Shown here one piece after another: positions 33,929-38,884 of a DNA stretch of 51,544 nucleotides. Origin of the DNA: Clostridia bacterium (GTDB lineage Bacteria > Bacillota > Clostridia > Christensenellales > Aristaeellaceae); contig JAFQQT010000005.1 of assembly GCA_017410455.1 (NCBI GenBank), positions 1-51,544 of the forward strand, given 5' to 3'. Made by a program: the position numbers and the translations under genes. Every line of letters starts with the position of its first letter. Position 1 is the stretch's first letter. The notes beneath the pieces were generated by a model. It had not been told where the DNA came from and did not search any database. It was given only the letters and a program-made list of their open reading frames with translations.

Positions 33929-35671
33929 TCATTCGTCCTCCCAGACCATGCTGTCAGGGTCGATGGTCACCACAGGCGTGGGGGCGGGGGTGGCTGTGGG
34001 AGCGGGAGTCGGGATGGGCGCGGGGGTGGGCGAAGGCGTCGGTGCCGGAGTCGCCGTGGGAGCCGGGGTGGGCGTGGCCAGCTCATCGGCGTAGATGGCG
34101 TTGTACGTCTTCTGATCCACCTGGCCGGTCTGGCTCAGCCCGTGATCCTTCTGGAAGGCCTTCACGGCGTTCACCGTGCCATCGAGGTAGGTGCCGCCGA
34201 TGTGGCCGTGGTAGTAGCCCAGCTCGGTCAGCTTGCACTGCAGGTGGTACACATCCTCGCCGGTGGAGTTCTTCTTCATCGTGCGGAAGCCGCTCTCGGG
34301 CAGCGTCCCGCTCTGGTAAACGGGCGCGGGGGTCGGCGTGGGGGTGACGTAGGGCAGCATGAATTCCTTGTTGAGGGAGGGGAGCTTCAGAGCTGCGCGC
34401 AGCTCCGGGTCGGCAGGGAGGTCCTCGGTGATGGTAACGACCACGCCTTCGCCGCAGTTGTCGTAGATCCACTTCGCGTCCGCCACCGTCAGGCGGATGC
34501 AGCCGTGGGAGGCGCGCTTGCCCAGGTTGTTGTAGCTGGAGACGCTCAGGGACATGGTATTGCCGGATTCAGAGTAAATGACGGAATGGAATGCGATGGA
34601 GGAGTTGATCCGAGTCCAGAACTGCGCATAGCCGCCCCATTGCGGGAATTCGCACCAGCGGGCAACGCGGCCGGTCAGCACCCAGTCGCCCACGTCGGAG
34701 GGGTAGGCCTTGGTGCCGGTGGAGCAGAGCATCTGCCGCACGACGGTGGTGTATTCGCCGTTTTCATCCAGGCCGTACACGGTGACGACCTGGTTAGTCA
34801 CGTCCACGGTGATGGCATAGGGGACGGGCGGCTTGGGCTTGGGTTCGTCGTTCACGCCGCGCACGTCGGGGTCGTTGAACAGGGCGTTCCAGGTGTCCTG
34901 GCCGACGATGCCGTCCACCTTCAGGGCGTTGTGCTCCTGAAAGGCCTTGACGGCGTTGCGGGTGTTGCCCAGGAAGTTGCCGGAGATGCGGTGGCTGTAG
35001 AAGCCCAGCTCGGTCAGCCGCTCCTGCACCTGGATGACGAGGCTGCCGGTGGATTCTTCATATCTGAGGGTCTTCGTGTAGGGGATTTCCGGGCGCGGGG
35101 TGGGTTCCGCCGTGGGGCCCGGGGTGGGCGTCGGGGTGGGCTGATCGGCCAGGCCGTCAGCATAGGGCAGCGCATTGACCGAGAAGAGCAGCGCCAGGGT
35201 GTCCACGTCGGCATTGCCGGTGGGCTCCTCGCCGCTGAAAAGCTGGAAGGTGCGCACGGCCTCCTGCGTTGCGGGCAGATAGGTGCCCGAGAGGTTGCCG
35301 CTGTAGTAGCCCAGGGCGGTCAGGCGCACCTGAAGCAGACGCACGTCCTCGCCCGTGCAGCCAAGGCGCAGGGGGCGGCGCTGGGTGGAGAAGATCAGCG
35401 CCTGGGTCTCAGTATCCGCCTCGCCCGTCTGCAGCAGGCTGAAGTCGGATTGGAAGGCCTTCACGGCCGCCCGGGTCACTTCGCCGTAGGAGCCGCTGAT
35501 TTCGCCGTCGTAGTAGTACAGCTCGCTCAGCTTGAGCTGCAGGGCGGCAACTTCCTCGCCGAAATCGCCGATGGAGAGCGGCTCAGCGCTCACGACGATG
35601 GCCATGTCCTCGGCGGCAGCGCACAGGGGCAGCAGCACAATGGCCAGCAGAAGGAGAAGAATCTTTTTCAT
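33929..35671 (-). CDS. L,D-transpeptidase (YkuD) with four peptidoglycan-binding repeats
   Basis: Secreted cell-wall enzyme of 580 residues that can form 3-3 peptide cross-links. A signal peptide (1-20, cleavage near AAA-ED) is followed by peptidoglycan-binding type 1 repeats at about 33-95 and 105-170, a Pro/Thr linker, a third repeat at about 208-270, and the YkuD catalytic domain (about 285-430) with the Cys motif SHGCIRL and an upstream IAFHS His. A fourth binding repeat (about 460-525) and a Pro/Thr tail (TPTPAP units) ending in WEDE complete it. The ATG at 35671 gives a clear signal peptide and has GAGAGGT upstream. Four binding repeats on both sides of the catalytic domain is more than most relatives have. 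Confidence 0.92.
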   Translation of the reverse strand: MKKILLLLLAIVLLPLCAAAEDMAIVVSAEPLSIGDFGEEVAALQLKLSELYYYDGEISGSYGEVTRAAVKAFQSDFSLLQTGEADTETQALIFSTQRRPLRLGCTGEDVRLLQVRLTALGYYSGNLSGTYLPATQEAVRTFQLFSGEEPTGNADVDTLALLFSVNALPYADGLADQPTPTPTPGPTAEPTPRPEIPYTKTLRYEESTGSLVIQVQERLTELGFYSHRISGNFLGNTRNAVKAFQEHNALKVDGIVGQDTWNALFNDPDVRGVNDEPKPKPPVPYAITVDVTNQVVTVYGLDENGEYTTVVRQMLCSTGTKAYPSDVGDWVLTGRVARWCEFPQWGGYAQFWTRINSSIAFHSVIYSESGNTMSLSVSSYNNLGKRASHGCIRLTVADAKWIYDNCGEGVVVTITEDLPADPELRAALKLPSLNKEFMLPYVTPTPTPAPVYQSGTLPESGFRTMKKNSTGEDVYHLQCKLTELGYYHGHIGGTYLDGTVNAVKAFQKDHGLSQTGQVDQKTYNAIYADELATPTPAPTATPAPTPSPTPAPIPTPAPTATPAPTPVVTIDPDSMVWEDE

Positions 35672-35704
35672 GGCAGTACCTCTCGTGATGGGTTGTACGG
35701 AATT

Positions 35705-35733
35705 ATTGTAGCGTTTCGCGCGGCCTTTTGCAA
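35705..35733 (-). promoter_or_regulatory. Promoter of the L,D-transpeptidase gene
   Basis: On the minus strand TTGCAA (35728-35733), 17 bases, TACAAT (35705-35710), about 34 bases before the ATG. Confidence 0.75.
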
Positions 35734-35823
35734 GGGGGACGGAAGAATTTACATCCCCGCGGGCCCGAATGTGGCAAAATGGTGAAATGTGTGTAAAAAA
35801 CATCATCAGTACAGTCGATGGGG

Positions 35824-35852
35824 TTGACAAATCCGGCGCAACATGGTATGCT
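35824..35852 (+). promoter_or_regulatory. Promoter of the methionine transporter operon
   Basis: TTGACA (35824-35829), 17 bases, TATGCT (35847-35852). Transcription should start near 35859, giving a leader of about 355 bases before metQ. The whole 543-base gap between the transpeptidase gene and metQ is explained by two divergent promoters, the leader ORF, the terminator and a second short ORF. Confidence 0.85.
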
Positions 35853-35885
35853 TGCCTTAATTTCCTGAGGAAGGGAGAATGCGCA

Positions 35886-35981
35886 ATGATGCAGCGCCGC
35901 AACGCGATGTCCATGCTGATGCCCATGTGCATGTGCCGCATGAGCATGCGTTGCTGTGCCGGTCTTCGTTGCGCTGCCTGA
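35886..35981 (+). CDS. Met-rich leader peptide of the metQNI operon
   Basis: A 31-codon ORF with nine Met codons (1, 2, 8, 10, 12, 14, 16, 19, 21) and five Cys codons (15, 17, 23, 24, 29), ending in TGA. AAGGGAG lies 8 bases before the first ATG and a SigA promoter lies about 35 bases further up. Downstream come a GC-rich hairpin (about 35985-36010), an intrinsic terminator (36022-36057) and the methionine importer genes. Known leader peptides for trp, his, leu and others carry repeated codons of the amino acid they sense; a ribosome stalled for lack of charged Met-tRNA would be the switch here. The role is inference, but Met density, context and RNA layout agree. A small Met/Cys metal-binding peptide is the alternative. 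Confidence 0.82.
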   Translation: MMQRRNAMSMLMPMCMCRMSMRCCAGLRCAA

Positions 35982-36038
35982 TATCGCCCGCCGGTGAATT
36001 CCGGTGCGGGGCCGACAGAGAGGAAGCTGCATCGAAGA
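35963..36038 (+). promoter_or_regulatory. Predicted antiterminator pairing in the met leader
   Basis: TCTTCGTTGC (35963-35972, codons 26-29 of the leader ORF) can pair with GCATCGAAGA (36029-36038, loop and 5' arm of the terminator) at nine of ten positions. A ribosome stalled on Met codons 8-21 leaves this segment free; one that reaches the stop codon covers it. A second complement, GATGCAGC (35888-35895) with GCTGCATC (36026-36033), is perfect over 8 bases. Confidence 0.55.
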
Positions 36039-36057
36039 GATTGCAACTTCCTTTTTT
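36022..36057 (+). terminator. Attenuator terminator before metQ
   Basis: Stem GGAAGCTGCA (36022-36031) with TGCAACTTCC (36042-36051), one mismatch, then six T. It lies 40 bases after the leader stop and 158 before metQ, so it must be bypassed for transporter expression. Confidence 0.85.
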
Positions 36058-36092
36058 GTTAACTCTGCCGAGCGTGAAAGGAGCCCTTCCGA

Positions 36093-36155
36093 ATGAGAAA
36101 TACAGCCTGCCTGAGGGCGCATATGAACCGCGAGAGCAGACGAATGCGACGCTGA
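36093..36155 (+). CDS. Possible second short ORF in the met leader
   Basis: A 20-codon ORF (starts MRNTACLRAH, Arg-rich, three Met) with AAAGGAG 9 bases before the ATG, between the attenuator and metQ. No family is recognised. It may be chance or may couple ribosome loading to metQ. Confidence 0.3.
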   Translation: MRNTACLRAHMNRESRRMRR

Positions 36156-36214
36156 AGCTGCTGCTACGGAACAGATGCGTACACGTTGACAAACAAGAAA
36201 AAGGAGAGACTGTC

Positions 36215-37066
36215 ATGAAGAAGTTCCTGTCCCTGATCCTGGCCGCCGTGCTGGCCCTGTCCGTTTCCGCTGCCCTGGCTGATACCATCACCATCGCCGT
36301 GCCCAACGACCCCACCAACGAGGGCCGCGCTCTGCTGCTGCTGCAGTCCTACGGCATCATCTCCCTGGATCCCGAAGCCGGCATCACCGCCACCGCGGCT
36401 GATATCATCGACAACCCCCTGGGCATCGAGTTCTTCGAGGTCGAGGCGGCCATGGTTCCCAACGTCATGGCTGATGTGGACTACGCCATCATCAACAACA
36501 ACTTCGCCCTGGACTTCGGCCTGAATCCCGTGGCGGACTCCCTGCTGATTGAGAGCGCGGATTCCCCCTACGCCAACGTCCTGTGCGTCAACGCCGGCAA
36601 CGAGACCACCGACGCCGCCAAGGCGCTGGCCGCCGCGCTGAACAGCCAGCAGGTTGCTGACTACATCACCGCCACCTACGCCGGCGCTGCCGTGTCCGTT
36701 GTGGCTGAGCCCACCGATGGCTACGATCCCACCGTGGATTACGCCGCTCTGGCCGGCACCACCATCACCGTGGCTGCTTCCCCCACGCCCCACGCCCAGA
36801 TCCTGGCCGTGGCCGAGGAGATCCTGGCTGCCAAGGGCGTCAAGCTGGAGGTCATTGAGTTCTCCGATTACATCCAGCCCAACATGGTCGTGGATGCCGG
36901 TGAGGTCTTTGCCAACTACTTCGCCCACACCCCCTATCAGGATAACTTCAACGCCGAGAACGGCACCAACATCGTGGTCGTTGCGCCCATCCACGTCGAG
37001 CCCATGGGCCTCTACGGCGGTCAGCAGGCCGACCTGACCCTGCTGGGCCTGCCCGCGGCTGAGTAA
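36215..37066 (+). CDS. metQ: Methionine-binding protein MetQ/NlpA family, circularly permuted
   Basis: Exported substrate-binding protein of 283 residues for D/L-methionine uptake. After a signal peptide (1-22, ALA-DT) the mature protein begins with ITIAVPNDPTNEGRALLLLQ, continues through FFEVEAA, YAIINNNFAL and DSPYANVLCVN to about residue 160. In normal MetQ this is the C-terminal half. A linker leads to residue 181, where ITVAASPTPHAQIL, EVIEFSDYIQPN, VFANYFAHTPYQD and HVEPMGLY follow; in normal MetQ these form the N-terminal half. The order is therefore swapped although every motif is present. There is no Cys after the signal peptide, so it is not a lipoprotein. Start ATG at 36215 with AAGGAGAG 6 bases upstream. 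First transporter gene of metQNI. Confidence 0.92.
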   Translation: MKKFLSLILAAVLALSVSAALADTITIAVPNDPTNEGRALLLLQSYGIISLDPEAGITATAADIIDNPLGIEFFEVEAAMVPNVMADVDYAIINNNFALDFGLNPVADSLLIESADSPYANVLCVNAGNETTDAAKALAAALNSQQVADYITATYAGAAVSVVAEPTDGYDPTVDYAALAGTTITVAASPTPHAQILAVAEEILAAKGVKLEVIEFSDYIQPNMVVDAGEVFANYFAHTPYQDNFNAENGTNIVVVAPIHVEPMGLYGGQQADLTLLGLPAAE

Positions 37067-37141: not shown

Positions 37142-38170
37142 ATGATCGAACTGCGCAACCTCTCCAAGAGCTTCATCACCGCCGATGGCCCGGTGGACGC
37201 GCTCCGCAACGTGTCGCTGACCATCAACAGCGGCGATATCTATGGCATCATAGGCATGTCCGGCGCGGGCAAGTCCACCCTGGTGCGCTGCATCAACATG
37301 CTCGAGCGCCCCACAGAGGGTCATGTTCTGCTGGACGGCCAGGATCTGGGCTCGATGCGCAAGAATGAGCTGCGCAAGACCCGCCGCCGCGTCACCATGA
37401 TCTTCCAGGGCTTCAATCTGCTCATGCAGCGCAACTGCCTGCAGAACATCATGCTGCCGCTGAAGCTGGCGGGCGTGAAGCCGGCGGAGGCGAAGGCCCG
37501 TGCCCTGCAGATGCTGGATATCGTGGGCCTGCCGGACAAGGCCCGCGCTTACCCCGCGCAGCTCTCCGGCGGTCAGCAGCAGCGCATCGCCATCGCCCGC
37601 GCCCTGGCCACCAACCCGGATGTGCTCCTGTGCGACGAGGCCACCAGCGCCCTTGACCCCAAGACCACCCACGCGATCCTTGAGCTGATCCGCGACATCA
37701 ACAGGAAGCTGGGCATCACCGTCATCGTCATCACCCACCAGATGAGCGTGGTGCAGGAGATCTGCAACCGCGTGGCCATCCTGGAGCACGGCGCGGTGGT
37801 GGAGGAGGGCGAGGTGGCGCAGGTCTTTGCCAACCCGCAGGCCGAGGCCACCAAGAACCTGGTCTACCCCGAGATGGCCGACGCCAACGTGGCCCTGGGC
37901 GACAAGAATGGCCAGCGCGTGCGCATCATCTTCAATGGCGCCATCGCTGCCAATGAGCCCCTCATCGCCAGGATGGCGCTGGAGACCGGCATTGCCGCGT
38001 CCATTCTGGGCGCCTCCACCCGCGCGGTGGGCGACAGGGCCTACGGCTACATCCTGCTGGAGATCCCAGGCGGGCCGGACGAGCTCGCGAAGGCGGTCAA
38101 GTTCCTGCGCCAGACGCCGGACGTCACCGTGTCCGTGGAAGTCAACTACGCTGAGATGAAGGGGGTATAA
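37142..38170 (+). CDS. metN: Methionine ABC transporter ATP-binding protein
   Basis: ATPase of 342 residues. Walker A GMSGAGKST (about 38-46), Q-loop FQGFNLL, signature LSGGQQQRIAIARAL, Walker B VLLCDEATSALD and switch His in VITHQM. The C-terminal part (about 260-340, VRIIFNG through VSVEV) is the NIL domain, which in E. coli MetN binds methionine and shuts the transporter by trans-inhibition. GGAGG precedes the ATG. It lies 75 bases after metQ and 3 before metI. The NIL domain together with the leader would give control at both protein and RNA level. Confidence 0.96.
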   Translation: MIELRNLSKSFITADGPVDALRNVSLTINSGDIYGIIGMSGAGKSTLVRCINMLERPTEGHVLLDGQDLGSMRKNELRKTRRRVTMIFQGFNLLMQRNCLQNIMLPLKLAGVKPAEAKARALQMLDIVGLPDKARAYPAQLSGGQQQRIAIARALATNPDVLLCDEATSALDPKTTHAILELIRDINRKLGITVIVITHQMSVVQEICNRVAILEHGAVVEEGEVAQVFANPQAEATKNLVYPEMADANVALGDKNGQRVRIIFNGAIAANEPLIARMALETGIAASILGASTRAVGDRAYGYILLEIPGGPDELAKAVKFLRQTPDVTVSVEVNYAEMKGV

Positions 38171-38173
38171 GCG

Positions 38174-38884
38174 ATGAATCAGTTTGCAAGAGCCTTCACC
38201 CCGGATCGCCTGCAGGAGGCCTGGAAGGTCATCTGCGAGGACTTTCCCTTTGCGGCCTGGGAGACCTTCTATGCCACCATCCTGGCCACCTTCTTTGCCC
38301 TGATCATCGGTCTGCCCCTGGGCATGCTGCTGGTGGCGGGAGATGAAAAGGGGATCCTGCCCCTGCCCAGGCCCATCATGCAGGTCATCAACGTCGTGAT
38401 CAACCTCCTGCGCTCGGTGCCCTTCATCATCCTGATGGTCATGGTCATTCCGCTGACCCGCTTGATCGTGGGCACCTCCGTGGGCACGGTGGCCTCCATC
38501 GTGCCGCTGGTGATCGCGGCTTTCCCCTTTGTGGCCCGCCTGGTGGAATCCAGCCTGCGCGAGGTCAACCCCAACATCATCGAGACGGCTCAGTCCATGG
38601 GCGCAACGCCGCTGCAGATCCTCCTGCGGGTGATGCTGCCTGAGTCCGTGCCCAGCCTGATCACCAACATCACCCTGGCCATCACCACCATCATGGGCTA
38701 CACGGCCATGTCCGGTGCAGTGGGCGGCGGCGGCCTGGGCATGATCGCCATCACCTACGGCTACAACCGCTATCGCTACGCGGTGCTGTACGCGGCGGTG
38801 ATCGTGCTGGTCATCATCACCCAGGTGATCCAGAGCGCGGGCACCTGGCTGGCCAGGAAGTGCGACAAGCGCCTCAAAAAGTGA
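38174..38884 (+). CDS. metI: Methionine ABC transporter permease
   Basis: Membrane subunit of 236 residues with about five helices. The binding-protein-dependent transport signature is present: EVNPNIIETAQSMGATPLQILLRVMLPES region (about 135-160), the EAA loop that contacts MetN. RSVPFIILMVMVIPLTR and GAVGGGGLGMIAI are typical of MetI. Last gene of the operon; a hairpin follows. Confidence 0.95.
   Translation: MNQFARAFTPDRLQEAWKVICEDFPFAAWETFYATILATFFALIIGLPLGMLLVAGDEKGILPLPRPIMQVINVVINLLRSVPFIILMVMVIPLTRLIVGTSVGTVASIVPLVIAAFPFVARLVESSLREVNPNIIETAQSMGATPLQILLRVMLPESVPSLITNITLAITTIMGYTAMSGAVGGGGLGMIAITYGYNRYRYAVLYAAVIVLVIITQVIQSAGTWLARKCDKRLKK

Follow-up and report, generated by a model that had tools for sequence, protein, structure and literature searches.

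Upstream of the methionine importer operon metQNI of a Clostridia bacterium, probably an uncultured gut bacterium, a leader region was found which can best be explained as a Met-specific, ribosome-mediated transcription attenuator sensing charged methionyl-tRNA, with an estimated probability of about 0.86. As far as sequence comparison can show, this reading rests on the parts of the device, on selection for its Met codons and on the coevolution of both sides of a predicted antiterminator. The leader lies in a stretch of 51,544 nucleotides (contig JAFQQT010000005.1, assembly GCA_017410455.1), referred to below as the window. From position 35824 on, a promoter, a Shine-Dalgarno sequence, a short ORF (ORF1), a GC-rich hairpin, an intrinsic terminator and metQNI follow each other in this order (Table 1). 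The first-pass annotation had listed these same elements, including the nine Met codons among the first 21 of ORF1, and sequence inspection confirmed all of them.

Table 1. Position and basis of the features assigned to the leader region and the metQNI operon in the window.
Feature	Position	Strand	Remarks and basis
Sigma-70-type promoter, TTGACA-17-TATGCT	35824..35852	+	TG ahead of -10; sequence inspection
Shine-Dalgarno sequence of ORF1, GGAAGGGAG	35869..35877	+	8 nt 5' of ATG
ORF1, putative Met/Cys-rich leader peptide of 31 codons, MMQRRNAMSMLMPMCMCRMSMRCCAGLRCAA	35886..35981	+	ATG...TGA; comparison of relatives
Predicted antiterminator, 5' strand	35963..35979	+	3' end of ORF1; coevolution and folding
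GC-rich hairpin, nested in the antiterminator loop	35984..36015	+	folding
Predicted antiterminator, 3' strand (terminator 5' arm and loop)	36021..36038	+	folding, consensus structure
Intrinsic terminator	36020..36057	+	stem 36020-36053, T-tract 36052-36057
ORF2, second conserved leader ORF, MRNTACLRAHMNRESRRMRR	36093..36155	+	Shine-Dalgarno AAAGGAG 36077-36083; CGA-ATG 36141-36146
metQ, methionine-binding protein, circularly permuted; controlled gene	36215..37066	+	Pfam, comparison with PDB sequences, NCBIfam, structure model
metN, ATPase with NIL domain	37142..38170	+	Pfam, NCBIfam
metI, permease	38174..38884	+	Pfam, NCBIfam

A short ORF with its own ribosome site 3' of a promoter is the arrangement expected of a leader-peptide attenuator, and TTGACA/TATNNT-like elements were also seen by eye 5' of ORF1 in many relatives. 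The earlier description of the leader as Met-rich was right, but it missed the Cys richness (five Cys codons in the ORF1 of the window) and the second conserved ORF after the terminator. When 35700-36214 was shuffled 2000 times with its dinucleotides preserved, eight Met codons within 20 never arose; across the six frames of the window, a second stop-free stretch with even six Met in 20 codons is absent. On the minus strand, divergent from the leader promoter, a large ORF (33929-35670) with repeated stretches and proline/threonine linkers resembles, by eye, a protein of the cell-wall-binding type.

According to the proposed mechanism, transcription would begin just 3' of the -10 element (35852), with ORF1 being translated by a ribosome. 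When Met is plentiful, this ribosome would reach the stop codon (35979-35981) and, sitting there, would mask the 3' end of ORF1 from 35963 to 35979, so that the terminator would form and metQNI would be switched off. A shortage of elongator Met-tRNA, by contrast, would make the ribosome stall at the Met codons within codons 8-21 and leave the same segment free to pair with the terminator 5' arm and loop, around the GC-rich hairpin, before the terminator 3' arm is made; once the antiterminator had formed, transcription would continue into the importer. Starvation for methionine reduces fMet-tRNA as well, and with it translation initiation; a sensor based on Met codons could be blunted thereby. 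The classical attenuators of trp, his, leu and ilv, whose anatomy served for comparison, likewise begin with a short ORF in which codons for the amino acid of the operon abound, followed by an antiterminator and a terminator that exclude each other. The leader described here differs from them in the amino acid, in preceding an importer operon and in that the ORF itself, at its 3' end, contains the antiterminator 5' strand.

The MetQ protein of the window was used as query for homologous loci. Of 80 genomes chosen by kinship 56 contained a MetQ match, and further loci were taken from the best 80 of 476 named MetQ matches, the nearest of which were MAGs that carry the label Clostridia or Clostridiales and in many cases derive from the gut of herbivores. 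As the first-pass annotation had proposed to search for, Met-rich short ORFs followed by terminators were present 5' of metQ in relatives: after removal of duplicates between the collections, a stop-free stretch of 20 codons with at least six Met was found in 31 distinct loci, including the window. Three leaders with 4-5 Met (L019, L042 and L105) were added by eye on the basis of their layout, after the pairing had been noticed in L042 and L105, giving a set of 34; the tests described below were rerun without them. Other loci with 4-5 Met (L024, L049, L052, L058, L077, L079 and L086) were left out. Leaders of this type also occur in MAGs that bear the labels Gemmiger (L105) and Faecalibacterium (L107). 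A start with Shine-Dalgarno sequence was assigned by script in 31 of the 34; in these, ORF1 has a length of 26-47 codons, the upper value (L013) probably being due to a mis-assigned start, and contains 5-12 Met with a median of nine.

In the 34 distinct leaders, window included, 256 ATG triplets are in frame and 11 out of frame, and in 18 divergent leaders the counts are 126 and 5. This bias indicates that codons are under selection rather than a repeat in the RNA or DNA. The ORF, a lack of whose conservation was to have refuted the first-pass reading, keeps its Met codons in frame across divergent relatives, and the residues that separate them differ widely. Codons of the amino acid served by the operon are therefore both enriched and kept, as in other leader attenuators.

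The composition of the leaders raises the question of whether sulphur amino acids are sensed jointly rather than Met alone. In the last 28 codons of the 18 divergent leaders Cys accounts for 12.7% beside 25% Met, and the metL leader of S. lividans, located before metNIQ, shows the same mixture of both residues in the available part of its description (PMC8079986). However, several leaders carry only two Cys against 5-12 Met, and the ATG-TGC runs may partly stem from sequence constraints. A contribution of Cys to the signal is therefore possible but considered doubtful.

For the Met-specific attenuator, folding calculations gave the expected pair of structures. The terminator hairpin of the window has a predicted energy of -14.3 kcal/mol. 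The terminator scanner, whose rules demand a plain stem and a loop of 3-8, reported none between 34500 and 37500 (shuffle expectation 1.8); the terminator stem in the window is imperfect. With a ribosome placed on Met codon 21 and the terminator 3' arm not yet made, 15 antiterminator pairs were computed between 35963-35979 and 36021-36038 around the GC-rich hairpin, which shows that the pairing of 35963-35972 with 36029-36038 noted in the first-pass annotation was correct but incomplete. Placing the ribosome on the stop codon instead lets the terminator fold.

Across the set, a terminator follows ORF1 in all 34 leaders and thus stands between the leader ORF and the structural genes; 29 terminators were located by script, two were trimmed (L013, L069) and three set by hand (L019, L021, L054). 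At least 10 antiterminator pairs were predicted in 31/34 leaders when the 3' arm was unmade, and the terminator folds in 34/34 with a ribosome at the stop. Once the 3' arm is present, the terminator beats the antiterminator in 33/34 leaders despite a stalled ribosome. Read-through would therefore have to be kinetic, and the model needs kinetic trapping of the antiterminator. An antiterminator exclusive with the terminator, whose 5' strand would be gated by the ribosome, is accordingly predicted as in known leader attenuators, with weak pairing in 5 of the 18 divergent leaders.

Support also came from coevolution. Shuffle tests on single leaders frequently failed to reach significance (L005, p 0.23; L067, p 0.69; L069, p 0.94), which the author attributes to the readiness of GC-rich tails to pair with many partners; a permutation between divergent leaders was therefore used instead. 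ORF tails were permuted among the 18 divergent leaders and the pairing energies of tail and terminator arm were summed; own partners reached -344.7, compared with a permuted mean of -277.2 (sd 13.4), and none of 20,000 permutations was as good. Nine leaders have their own tail in first place among the 18 and four have it in second or third, while in L050, L061, L067, L075 and L105 it ranks 7-17, no better than several foreign tails. The result was retained when the three hand-added leaders (0/50,000 permutations) or the main sequence group with the CATCG loop (0/50,000) were dropped, and also when hand-added leaders and hand-set terminators were removed together (6/50,000); shuffles of the own tails reached the own sum in 0/500 cases. 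In a sliding window of 43 nt the pairing signal is located around the ORF 3' end (offsets -5 to +20, with a weaker signal at -10) and is absent over the Met run. RNAalifold returned the antiterminator unprompted as consensus structure of 16 near-group leaders, in whose alignment only 1 of 13 antiterminator pairs has changes on both sides. The switch proposed in the first-pass annotation, in which a stalled ribosome would free the segment and one at the stop would mask it, is thereby supported at the level of ORF tail and terminator arm.

The genes downstream are predicted to serve the same amino acid. Pfam domains were found for all three proteins, the best NCBIfam names falling below curated cut-offs, and the substrate is predicted from these family profiles. 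The Pfam NlpA profile matches MetQ of the window in swapped order, pointing to a circular permutation. All 22 PDB sequences compared match MetQ in two stretches, the best of which fits the swap in each case, and for 4k3f an alignment of both stretches was obtained. The relatives align to this MetQ over its full length. The structure model has a mean pLDDT of 89.9, and the MetQ alignments among the Foldseek matches listed span 81-140 columns, about one half. No natural circularly permuted MetQ was found in the literature searched.

ORF2, situated between terminator and metQ, contains N-R-E-S-R-R-M. In 20 of 20 loci, picked by the peptide motif, CGA-ATG comes next after N-x-(E/C)-S-x, and the codon before it varies between the Arg codons AGA, AGG, CGG and CGC, with Met or Cys in two loci. 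The sequence CGAATGYG is present in 39/62 loci (74/6200 in mononucleotide shuffles), 36 of the 39 within a translatable short ORF; an ATG-started ORF with ribosome site runs in frame through it in 29/39 loci, the other frames giving 0 and 1. The motif also occurs in relatives lacking ORF1. With up to two mismatches the ORF2 motif was found once each in 10/18 genomes, always beside metQ, and a wider regulon carrying it was rejected for these 18 genomes. The tetrapeptide R-R-M-C recurs in some ORF1s, some ORF2s (compared in L012, L018, L006, L013 and L015) and, in the part of its description available, S. lividans metL; this may be convergence or a shared stalling motif.

These peptides could also act by arrest of the nascent chain as in TnaC, CRRM-like stretches of ORF1 or the RM end of ORF2 stalling the ribosome on free Met or SAM and not through codon hunger. 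The N-x-E-S-x-R-M of ORF2 is indeed kept with synonymous changes beside the constant CGA-ATG, and the recurrence of R-R-M-C, as far as the S. lividans description goes, can be counted on the same side. The variable residues between the Met codons of ORF1, however, fit codon hunger, and ORF2 lies 3' of the terminator with a motif in only part of the loci, which makes arrest an unlikely explanation of the switch.

Methionine is known to be sensed in Firmicutes chiefly by the SAM riboswitch, the T-box or a DNA-binding regulator. Control of the terminator by a Met/SAM riboswitch or T-box, with ORF1 being incidental, deserved attention, since such elements occur before metQ elsewhere: among 60 metQ loci of 34 other families of the class (drawn from 148 genomes that gave a match among 292), Rfam searches on the metQ strand found SAM-I in 16 and T-box in 4, counted over the whole fetched stretch before metQ and not case by case for the gene directly downstream. 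These elements were likewise located in the stretch before metQ but bind SAM or tRNA. The genome of the window also has a SAM-I before metK (L113) and a T-box before metG (L114), gene names being read from translations. At the locus itself neither the SAM-I (RF00162) nor the T-box (RF00230) covariance model matched, although SAM-I was recovered before metK and the T-box model gave 12 matches at E <= 0.001, three above cut-off, elsewhere in the same genome. No Rfam match rose to the gathering score of its family, either in the window or in 20 related loci, and a relaxed search (E up to 10) of 35780-36300 yielded four unrelated families, far below gathering scores. The absence of both elements, as stated in the first-pass annotation, is upheld by these searches, on which a riboswitch or T-box at the locus was rejected; conserved in-frame ATG codons would moreover be needless for an aptamer, leaving this explanation very improbable. 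One genome thus appears to carry three different RNA devices around methionine, and the lineage has other RNA sensors yet uses the Met leader for its importer. Even less credible is selection for an RNA structure or DNA motif of ATGTGC/GCAT repeats with the frame as by-product: repeats like GCATGTGCATG are partly self-complementary by eye, but the frame test (ATG in frame in 126/131 cases) rules it out and windows over the Met run lack coevolution with the terminator.

A DNA operator appears to take the place of the Met leader in part of the relatives. In 59 distinct loci with permuted MetQ (L011 and L070, which have short upstream DNA, and loci lacking permuted MetQ being left out), the palindrome TATAG-N7-CTATA with at most one mismatch within 420 nt was present in 0/29 loci with a Met-rich ORF versus 21/30 without (Fisher p = 3.6e-9, a value that takes no account of common ancestry). 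The threshold for Met-rich was 6/20, and the 30 loci below it include the leaders L019 and L042. Mononucleotide shuffles gave the palindrome in 40/2950 cases. The palindromes (L024, L025, L048, L049, L051-L053, L055-L059, L064-L066, L072, L074, L076, L078, L079 and L081) were often seen near a TTGGACA element. In the window (L003) the best match within 420 nt of metQ has 4/10 mismatches. A similar palindrome, the MET box TATAGTTTnAAACTATA, is described in the accessible parts of two reports as operator of the LysR-type regulators MetR/MtaR/CmhR (PMC2627894, PMC5359408). On that description it is a DNA operator at the promoter, unlike the Met leader.

The distribution of the leader was followed within the family and beyond it. 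A covariance model built from 16 leaders and run on 300 family genomes matched in 32, of which 16 were its source genomes. All 14 of the 16 further genomes that were inspected contain a Met-rich short ORF with 4-10 Met in 20 codons, some of these loci repeating members of the set of 34. The gene 3' of the match is metQ in 10/14 and directly metN in L143, and L132 runs into a contig end. In L148 a Met leader and terminator precede a gene for a LysR-type regulator and then one for a peptide-binding protein, and not metQ (names by eye).

A screen of these 60 loci from other families for short ORFs with five or more Met in 20 codons gave 11, six of which (L206, L213, L225, L229, L236 and L245, from four families) were taken as leader candidates on account of their position before the importer; the Met-rich short ORFs of L197, L209, L252 and L253 are not so placed and were left out. 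In L227 a short ORF with five Met in 20 codons may precede metQ, inside or before the operon of another family. With the threshold raised to at least six Met in 20 codons, the 317 kb contained four sense short ORFs, all directly before the importer, and one antisense. L206 has a perfect 11-bp match between ORF tail and terminator loop; the pairing energies of L206 and L236 were each reached in 1/1000 shuffles, the terminator of L236 having been set by hand as none was found by script. Pairing in L245 is weak (rank 5 of 7). When five of the six candidates were added, giving 23 leaders, 0/20,000 permutations were as good, and the seven leaders outside the main group gave modest support by themselves (479/20,000).

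Leader peptides related to the present one have been proposed before, and in this respect the first-pass annotation, which knew of no Met-codon attenuator in this group, has to be narrowed: Met leader peptides have already been put forward for metBA of C. jejuni (PMC3847290) and for metNIQ of S. lividans (PMC8079986), and none was found for Clostridia in the literature searched. MetL before C. jejuni metBA is described as a Met leader peptide of 20 aa with three Met and early termination; the accessible part of that source reports it for no species besides C. jejuni, C. coli and C. doylei and describes no coevolution analysis (PMC3847290), and a start-codon signal is seen in Ribo-seq (PMC11955535, in part available). 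It precedes a biosynthetic operon, the leader of the window an importer operon. The metL of S. lividans, a Met/Cys peptide of 29 aa with Met near its end, precedes the same kind of importer, but in the part of the report available its transcript is leaderless and has no typical intrinsic terminator (PMC8079986). CJsORF19 (MMYQMR), detected by Ribo-seq 5' of the C. jejuni gene Cj0772c for a methionine-binding protein, is likewise a Met-rich short ORF in this position, with only six residues according to the excerpt (PMC11955535).

Histidine leader peptides before hisZ and a copy of hisS, described for Firmicutes in the available part of PMC2965389, similarly replace a T-box, with histidine instead of methionine. 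In the portion available, an actinobacterial survey reports no conserved RNA structures 5' of methionine operons (PMC1262725). The available parts of PMC9373788 and PMC4239095 describe no Met leader peptide, and none of the sought terms is present in PMC3656092. No precedent for a Met leader peptide in Clostridia was found in the literature searched, with subscription journals and preprints outside its scope. The kind of mechanism is thus known, and the amino acid, the bacterial group and the complete attenuator appear to be new within that literature.

A wider reading can be offered tentatively, at somewhat less than even odds: Met-codon attenuators may be widespread in Clostridia, repeatedly invented and interchangeable with SAM-I, T-box and MET box on this one importer operon, and the device described here may be double, ORF1 counting charged Met-tRNA to set termination and the CGA-ATG of ORF2 serving as a second checkpoint, perhaps as a Met-responsive arrest peptide. 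The counting of Met codons is an odd choice, as Met also starts every protein and starvation should weaken the initiation that the sensor needs. With selected Met attenuators replacing other sensors on one and the same operon, this initiation paradox becomes testable. The findings would carry leader-peptide attenuation into a large group of uncultured bacteria and provide a rule by which further cases may be searched for: the ORF should be Met-rich and have a tail that mirrors the arm of its terminator.
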